From: Ilumatobacter fluminis
Lineage (GTDB): Bacteria > Actinomycetota > Acidimicrobiia > Acidimicrobiales > Ilumatobacteraceae
DNA length: 64,000 bases
Reading direction: 5' to 3'
Assembly: GCF_004364865.1 (NCBI RefSeq)
Contig: NZ_SOAU01000001.1
Coordinates: 62,001 to 126,000, forward strand
The notes under the pieces were generated by a model. That model worked only from the letters and a program-made list of their open reading frames with translations. It searched no databases and was not told the origin of the DNA. Position numbers and translations under genes: made by a program. Shown piece after piece: positions 45,295 to 47,541 of the stretch. Each line of letters opens with the position of its first letter. The stretch's first letter is position 1.

Positions 45295-47541
45295 TTACTC
45301 GGCGGGGCCGACGAAGTCGAGGGTGGCGGTGACGCCTTCGTAGGTCGTGGTGAGGACCTGGTCCTCGCAGGTGAAGGTGCCGGTGCCGGCGATGGCCTCG
45401 GAGCCGACGGTTTGGTTCCCAGCTCCGAACGGCAGGTTCTGCAGCTGGCCACCCACCTCGAGCTGGATGGTGACCGTCGCCGGGCTGCCCGGGTCGGAGA
45501 TCGTGAGCTGGTTCCCCGACGAGCTCCAGGTACCCGGATCGGTCGAGTCGATCGTCGTGACGAGTGTGCCCTGCGGCGTTGTCATGCCGATCTGCCACTG
45601 GTTGCGGCGTCCGGTGTACGTGCCGTCGGGACGCAAGGTGACGGTGTATTCGCCAGACCGGTGCGTCATCTGGACTCCCTGACCCTGGCCGGCGACGCGG
45701 ATGATCTCGTCGAGGAACGCTTGGCTCCGCAGACGCCACACGCCGGTGAGACAGGTCAGCTTCACCGGTGCGATCTCGTCGATGCTCTGGCCGCTCTCGG
45801 GGAGTTCGATGGTGAGCTTCATCTCGACCTCGTCGTCCTCCTCGATCCGGTTGAGCAGCCTGACGTCGTCCTCGATGAGCCACTCGCCCCACTTGCCGGT
45901 CGGGTTGCCCTCGGATGCCGACCACGTGTCGACCTCGATCCCGTCGACCTCGAGCCGCAGGGTCGTGTCGGCTTCGGTGCCCGGGTCGAGTCCTTCGACG
46001 CGGAGCGCGACCGGCATGTAGTCGGCGTCGTCGCGGATGTCGACCCGGACTTCGGCGCCCGGTTGCATCTCGCCCCCGTCCTGTGGGTGGTCGATCCAGG
46101 CGACCTCACGGACGCGCAGGTCGCCGCTGCCACCGCCGCGCCGGACGAGGGTGACGGTGATCTCCCCGCCTTCCTCCGGTGTGTCGGGCCGGTCGAGCGC
46201 CTCGATCTCGGGTCCGTTGCCGTCACTCGTCGCTTCGCTGCCGCCGACATCTGCGCCGGTGACGTAGTGGAACCGGCCGTCGCTACCGAGGACCAGGATT
46301 TCGCCGGGTTCGTCCGGTGTGTCGGGGTCGGCGACGTCGTCGTAGGTGACCAGGTCGGCGTCGCCGACGACGCTGTGGGCACGTTCGGTCGTCGAGCCGG
46401 TCTCGATCAGCGTGCTGTGCAGGGCGAGCGAGGATGCCTGCGCGAATGCCGAGTCGACGGCTTCGGTCCAGGAGAACACGACGCCGTCGCCGAAGGCGTT
46501 GGTGAGGTCTTCGCCGCGTCCGGTCTCGCATGCGGAGAGCACCACCGTGTCGGGGAGACCGTCCGGATACTGCTCTGCGAGGAACGAGTTGTCGACGAGT
46601 CGGTCGGCACCGTTGCGGTTGAAGCCGACGGTGGCGCCGCCGTTCTCGTCGAGGACGAGCACTTGCATGGTGACGTCGGAGTCGACGAGCAGCGACGTCA
46701 CACAGCCGCTCTCGTCGCAGATCTGCTGACCGTGTGTCGAGACGTGGACGACGTCATACGCGTCCCATCCTTCGAACGAGGAGAGGCCGACGCCCGTCTC
46801 GGTGGCGGTGTTCTCGTAGTACTCGACGTTGCCCTCATAGCCGCGTGCTCCCTCGTACAGGGCGGCGACGGCAGCGCCTTCGTCGGTCTCGGCGAAGTCG
46901 AATTGGTAGGGCGACAGCACGAGGGCGCGCTTGGTCTCGTGGTCGTCTCCGACCACGTCGCGCGGGATCGGTCGCGTGACGGCTGCGGTGCCGGAGCGAG
47001 CGGGTGCCGCGGATCGAGTGCTCCTCGTGCCGAGTGCACCGTCGCCGAAGAACCAGGCACCTATGCCGCCGTCGACGCGGAACCAGATCGCATCACCGCT
47101 GACGAGCACGCCGGCGATGTCGTCGTTGCCGGCGATCTCGTCGGCGACGGTGAACAGGTCGGCTCCGCCGCCGTACGACGCTTGGGCGGCTTCGCCGATG
47201 GCGAACGTCGCCTCCAGCGCCTCGGTCGTTGCCTCGGCCCAGGTGCAGGGGTGGTCGGCTGCGCCGCACGTGGTCAACTCGGAGACGGTCGGCACCTCGA
47301 CCGGCTCGTCGGGCTCGTCGGCCGGGTCGGTCTGGTCGTCGGCGGCGGCCGTGGTGCTCGTCGACTCGTCGTCGGAGTCGTCGCGCTCCCCGGGCTCGCT
47401 CGTGGCGCCGGTCGTCTCGGTGGCGTCGGGTTCGTCCGGTTCGTCACTGCCGGCGTCGTCGCCGCCCGAGCATGCGCTCAGGAGGAGGATGGTGGCCGCT
47501 GCGATGCACGTGAACCGTGCCGATCGTGTCCCCTGCGTCAT
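45295..47541 (-). CDS. Large secreted lipoprotein with a CHAT-like (caspase-type) His/Cys signature
   Basis: A 748-residue protein. Signal peptide with lipobox LLSAC (Cys24), then an acidic, Thr/Asp/Glu-rich linker (25-85). A region to about 200 has no match. A domain follows with VVHVSTHG (His270) and VVLSACETGRG (Cys338), the paired motifs of CHAT cysteine peptidases. A beta-rich section (about 415-600) and a C-terminal lipocalin/META-like barrel (about 630-748, YTVTLRPDGTYTGRRNQW) complete it. CHAT domains are usually cytosolic; an exported version is unusual. GGAAGG precedes the ATG. No obvious partner is adjacent. Confidence 0.75.
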   Translation of the reverse strand: MTQGTRSARFTCIAAATILLLSACSGGDDAGSDEPDEPDATETTGATSEPGERDDSDDESTSTTAAADDQTDPADEPDEPVEVPTVSELTTCGAADHPCTWAEATTEALEATFAIGEAAQASYGGGADLFTVADEIAGNDDIAGVLVSGDAIWFRVDGGIGAWFFGDGALGTRSTRSAAPARSGTAAVTRPIPRDVVGDDHETKRALVLSPYQFDFAETDEGAAVAALYEGARGYEGNVEYYENTATETGVGLSSFEGWDAYDVVHVSTHGQQICDESGCVTSLLVDSDVTMQVLVLDENGGATVGFNRNGADRLVDNSFLAEQYPDGLPDTVVLSACETGRGEDLTNAFGDGVVFSWTEAVDSAFAQASSLALHSTLIETGSTTERAHSVVGDADLVTYDDVADPDTPDEPGEILVLGSDGRFHYVTGADVGGSEATSDGNGPEIEALDRPDTPEEGGEITVTLVRRGGGSGDLRVREVAWIDHPQDGGEMQPGAEVRVDIRDDADYMPVALRVEGLDPGTEADTTLRLEVDGIEVDTWSASEGNPTGKWGEWLIEDDVRLLNRIEEDDEVEMKLTIELPESGQSIDEIAPVKLTCLTGVWRLRSQAFLDEIIRVAGQGQGVQMTHRSGEYTVTLRPDGTYTGRRNQWQIGMTTPQGTLVTTIDSTDPGTWSSSGNQLTISDPGSPATVTIQLEVGGQLQNLPFGAGNQTVGSEAIAGTGTFTCEDQVLTTTYEGVTATLDFVGPAE

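Follow-up and report, generated by a model that had tools for sequence, protein, structure and literature searches.

CHAT proteases are best known as intracellular effectors of defence or cell death. A 64,000-nucleotide stretch of the Ilumatobacter fluminis genome (4.78 Mb in one contig; the whole stretch is called the window here) encodes a protein, P0001, that was originally predicted to be an exported lipoprotein carrying the CHAT His/Cys dyad, which raises the question of whether a CHAT protease can work outside the cell and, if so, on what. The open reading frame, the lipobox LSAC24, the acidic stalk, VSTHG (H270) and LSACETG (C338) were all found in their places. In addition, we found three features that the original prediction did not mention: a Cys-pair domain conserved at the N-terminus, a second Cys pair between the dyad residues, and an RxR motif after the CHAT core. 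The features are as follows, where "members" are P0001 and the seven relatives described below; a linker separates the CHAT core from the post-CHAT domain.

45295..47541, minus strand: whole gene for P0001, a predicted exported CHAT lipoprotein (748 aa plus stop), with a 67% identical relative in genome G067
47470..47541, minus strand: predicted signal peptide, residues 1-24, with lipobox LSAC and lipobox Cys C24; both the strict and the looser lipobox pattern match
47290..47469, minus strand: acidic stalk, residues 25-84 (D+E 38%, hydrophobic 3%)
47032..47280, minus strand: N-terminal domain, residues 88-170, with Cys pair C92/C99 (alignments A9 and A10)
46342..46956, minus strand: CHAT core, residues 196-400 (Pfam match 187-346 and profile alignments)
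46732..46734, minus strand: His270 (HVSTHG), predicted catalytic, kept in 8/8 members
46702..46719, minus strand: loop with the extra Cys pair C275/C280, between the catalytic His and Cys (two Cys in 8/8 members, 0/18 other CHATs)
46528..46530, minus strand: Cys338 (LSACETG), predicted catalytic, kept in 8/8 members
46102..46116, minus strand: RxR[ED][VI] motif (R476VREV) at the start of the post-CHAT domain, in all 7 members that reach this point (the G514 protein ends earlier)
45757..46131, minus strand: conserved post-CHAT domain, residues 471-595 (alignment A6, six members; dN/dS ~0.13), where P0001 has no Pfam match
45298..45756, minus strand: lipocalin-like tail, residues 596-748, with Cys597/Cys725 (sub-threshold Lipocalin_4 match; G038 and G012 have ORFs with similar stretches)

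By residue count, mature P0001 (window positions 45298-47469) has a net charge of about -103 over 724 residues, with just 4 Lys. The tail had been called lipocalin/META-like; only a Lipocalin_4 match was recovered there, at 18.4 bits (cut-off 22.4), which leaves a likeness to lipocalins below threshold. Two ORFs elsewhere (L006:1501-1953 and L007:1501-1944) match this tail at 46% and 51% identity, with the rest of P0001 unmatched.

Searching with P0001 itself revealed a full-length relative in the same genus (the G067 protein) and a second, more distant one (G019); the remaining matches were mostly confined to the signal peptide and acidic stalk. In the genome collection, where searches covered the window's own phylum, a three-row profile had matches in 5 of the 395 class genomes (its own included). 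A six-row profile had matches in 8 of the 395, six of them counted as members, and in 4 of 396 phylum genomes, which added G674 as a new member. The eight members are those of G000 (the window), G067, G019, G211, G399, G514, G527 and G674; seven are predicted lipoproteins of one class, and G674 belongs to another class. A contig end truncates the G514 protein, and the G527 protein is split over two contigs. Candidates from G406 and G540 were dropped (short C-terminal matches to other CHATs), as was one from G801 (an 84-residue match, with the motifs not seen in the ORF by eye). Two scans of viral contigs yielded no relative, and the G067 record was the sole match in a scan of genome contigs.

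Across the dyad region, identity to P0001 is just 21-37% for six of the seven relatives. A tree of 31 rows placed the eight proteins on one side of a branch with support 98/91, with long branches flagged; without G514 and two other long rows, the remaining seven members stayed together (100/99), with the G211 and G399 branches still long. G674 lay within this clade in both trees, and its sister differed between builds. We recognised no description of the clade in a literature search whose set held few subscription papers.

P0001 scored 32.7 bits with the Pfam CHAT model PF12770, whose cut-off is 24 (E=6.7e-8, residues 187-346), covering positions 81-206 of 289 in the model, and H270 and C338 aligned with the canonical dyad, as originally predicted. 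The score above cut-off, together with a dyad kept in all eight members, indicates that the CHAT resemblance is not due to chance. The TPR association belongs to the family name, and the Pfam model does not require TPRs; no TPR match was listed for P0001 at E<=1. Peptidase families C25, C11 and C14 were likewise absent among its Pfam matches at E<=1, a range in which HMMER filters drop most matches above ~0.1. P0001 shares the canonical motifs, a His in HG and a Cys in [SN]AC, with CHAT proteins such as TPR-CHAT Csx29, in which H615A/C658A is reported to have abolished Csx30 cleavage (PMC10028731). It differs from Csx29 in its predicted export, its N-terminal domain and tail, its longer His-Cys stretch with a Cys pair, and its lack of detected TPRs and of a PADLOC match.

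Among the relatives, the catalytic Cys is preceded differently in G399 (SNC) and G514 (ESC), which replace AC. PF12770 was matched at E<=0.5 in only 2 of 6 members scanned, placing the clade at the edge of the CHAT family; G674 scored 20.8, below cut-off, and the partial G514 protein had no Pfam match at E<=0.01. Profile-profile comparison (hhalign) of the eight members against 18 other class CHATs gave a probability of 91% (E 1.1e-6), with the catalytic His and Cys both aligned, and a six-row version gave 75% (E 2.5e-5). These sequence profiles support the caspase-like fold implied by the original prediction. AlphaFold models of residues 85-405 and of the CHAT core, each built from two rows (the window and L036 sequences), had low confidence (pLDDT 40.6 and 35.1). 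With the first model (pLDDT 40.6), Foldseek placed an azoreductase first and SAVED-CHAT second (E 0.27), and VIA-align placed SAVED-CHAT at rank 18 (Z 7.0, 159 residues), with flavodoxin-like folds above or tied with it (best Z 8.3), so that SAVED-CHAT stood amid unrelated alpha/beta folds. The strand and helix order of this low-confidence model is caspase-like by eye, and the lack of further caspase-clan chains among its fold matches is uninformative. Searches of PDB sequences with P0001 and with alignments A5 and A10 returned no meaningful match.

The members depart from other CHATs in their cysteines. All eight members have exactly two extra Cys between the catalytic His and Cys, compared to 0 of 18 other class CHATs (hand-picked from the upper part of the class PF12770 match list, plus L027), 3 of which have one. 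The His-Cys spacing is 65-95 in the members and 40-47 in the other CHATs. Overall, the cysteines of the clade comprise conserved pairs plus a single Cys at the catalytic site, and the number left after removing catalytic, signal-peptide and lipobox Cys is even in every member, the G527 count being a sum over two unjoined contigs and the G514 count stopping at a contig end.

Lipobox-type N-termini were found in 7 of 7 class members by a looser pattern and in 4 of 7 by a strict one. Of six members that served as controls, five were flagged by a signal-peptide measure. G674, which is without a lipid anchor, instead carries three CWB2 repeats (177.2 bits, E 9.1e-53), and its N-terminus passes the signal-peptide measure when started at an internal ATG at codon 10. 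CWB2 is described as a putative cell-wall-binding module of clostridial S-layer proteins, and Cwp84 and Cwp13 of Clostridioides difficile as surface cysteine proteases with CWB2 domains (PMC5842191). These two share the module with G674 but differ in having a papain-like (C1A) catalytic domain. The CWB2-bearing relative and the cysteine pattern strengthen the export reading, and anchors and cysteines appear concordant in predicting an extracytoplasmic location. We consider a misread N-terminus and a cytoplasmic protein very improbable. Export is predicted from sequence only, and the reading frame stays open far upstream of the ATG used (878 aa); against a misreading stand the CWB2 repeats, the cysteine pattern, the 7 of 7 lipobox-type N-termini and the sequence directly upstream of that ATG, which is nearly identical in G067. 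P0001 is thus supported as a predicted exported lipoprotein with a CHAT dyad.

The original prediction had also held such a protein to be unusual, which proved true within the class only. Of the 395 class genomes, 52 had PF12770 matches, which we counted from the table as 89 (75 examined, 13 left out and the window's own). A crude signal-peptide measure flagged one of the 75, five of which have open 5' ends; this one was flagged at an internal start and discounted, leaving 0 credible cases. An earlier, looser measure applied to 14 of the 75 as controls flagged two, at internal starts ~260 codons in. Elsewhere the picture differs. Among 63 plasmid records matching a CHAT query, 12 were chosen, one of them unannotated and unscored. 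The remaining 11 carry 14 annotated CHAT or CHAT-like genes, of which a slightly wider signal-peptide measure flagged 5, and two more looked signal-like by eye. These signal-like N-termini indicate that exported CHATs are not new as such. One of the five, L096:3309-5816 on an Azospirillum oryzae plasmid (NZ_CP054615.1), has a lipobox-like N-terminus as P0001 does, and cyanobacterial proteins (Tolypothrix, L086) likewise combine a signal-like N-terminus with CHAT, L086 being TPR-linked; those cyanobacterial and Azospirillum proteins that were placed in trees fell outside the P0001 clade.

Extracellular proteases of clan CD are also established. Among clan CD peptidases, clostripains and gingipains are cited for surface processing and host cleavage (PMC3482391), and an extracellular location was proposed for metacaspases in 2012, with 46 of 398 single-domain ones having a lone N-terminal helix, possibly a signal peptide (PMC3501461). 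A CHAT protein of Bacteroides fragilis is reported as apparently transmembrane (PMC11854122). P0001 resembles the gingipains (C25) and clostripains (C11) in its predicted surface location and the metacaspases (C14) in its caspase-clan affinity and proposed extracellular placement, but has no Pfam match to any of the three.

We next consider what the protein might do. Over 745 codons, P0001 and G067 differ with dS 0.66 and dN 0.25, a sign of purifying selection (dN/dS ~0.38 overall). By segment, the CHAT core equals the overall value (~0.38), the N-terminal domain lies higher (~0.60) and the tail lower (0.21); the post-CHAT domain has the smallest ratio measured (~0.13), and in the acidic stalk (dN 0.58, dS 0.51, ratio ~1.1) constraint is not evident. 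In this pair, the CHAT core and N-terminal domain are thus under weaker constraint than the C-terminal domains, as might be expected of an exported pseudo-peptidase, that is, a CHAT-fold scaffold that binds a surface ligand or partner and performs no proteolysis; the partial match to the Pfam model (81-206 of 289) points the same way. The His and Cys, however, persist in 8 of 8 members despite the low identity of most relatives, and the catalytic Cys is precisely the one without a conserved partner Cys, so that we regard a pseudo-peptidase as unlikely. The persistence of the dyad argues for catalysis, and the constraint on the C-terminal domains for a conserved partner.

The reading that we favour, and think probable, is that P0001 is an active cysteine endopeptidase of the CHAT type (clan CD), tethered at the surface, whose targets are proteins of the envelope or its vicinity. 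Sec would export the protein, Cys24 would be lipidated, and the acidic stalk would hold the rest off the membrane. The N-terminal domain, the tail and the loop flanking the active site would each be stabilised by disulfides, with Cys338 left as the sole free thiol, as the conserved cysteine positions suggest. The substrates cleaved by His270 and Cys338 would be a single protein or a handful, in the envelope or secreted nearby, with the conserved C-terminal domains presumably choosing the target. Candidates for activation are the N-terminal domain, which may serve as a propeptide, and self-cleavage at RxR.

The gene neighbourhoods bear on whether this protease would instead serve in conflict. 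In the window and in G067, the same upstream neighbours lie beside the CHAT gene, and those in the window are of ordinary metabolic type. An all-against-all blastp of the window, L040, L038, L039, L169 and L170 (G067 left out) linked not only the CHAT genes but also ORFs resembling response regulators and kinases, along with their antisense shadows, at distances of 3-14 kb from the CHAT gene. We judged this commonplace; no conserved partner gene or candidate substrate was found in the member neighbourhoods. Four members (P0001, G019, G674 and G211) were run against PADLOC, none with a match at E<=0.1. An exported conflict protein, which would attack neighbouring cells or phages or process a surface toxin, has proposed precedents: caspase-like domains occur in polymorphic toxins, actinobacterial ones included (PMC3482391), and a fratricidal role has been suggested for extracellular metacaspases (PMC3501461). 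The sparse distribution of the clade (six members in 395 class genomes) would also suit such a role, but the metabolic neighbours, the lack of a conserved partner gene and the absence of PADLOC matches make it distinctly improbable. Because the neighbourhoods (the same-genus pair apart) share only regulator and kinase-like ORFs at varied distances, and PADLOC had no match, we prefer envelope proteolysis over defence.

More tentatively, envelope proteolysis may extend to the whole group, as an actinobacterial CHAT clade possibly adapted to the outside: disulfide-stabilised, with one free catalytic thiol, and anchored by lipid or CWB2 as a surface maturase or sheddase, an analogue of Cwp84 built on a caspase-clan domain. 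If so, the caspase-related CHAT domain would also do envelope work, in a clade that had been refitted for oxidising surroundings and had exchanged its anchors.

Several further observations concern individual loci. The G399 member (L039:3-9035) adjoins transposase- and integrase-like ORFs by eye. A suspected sigma-factor link was rejected, the Sigma70_r2 fragment ~4 kb from this member scoring 17.6 bits, below the cut-off of 24, and lying beside no other member; ARAGORN found no tRNA where one had been suspected nearby. On an Aureibacter tunicatorum plasmid (NZ_AP025312.1, L091:1197-5399), a sigma-70 gene, an uncharacterised ORF and the gene for a CHAT protein whose N-terminus is hydrophobic stand next to one another. 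Finally, the only other CHAT match in the window's genome (L027, G000:C1:1439768-1440499) carries no export flag and has a weak PADLOC match to BovA (25.2 bits).
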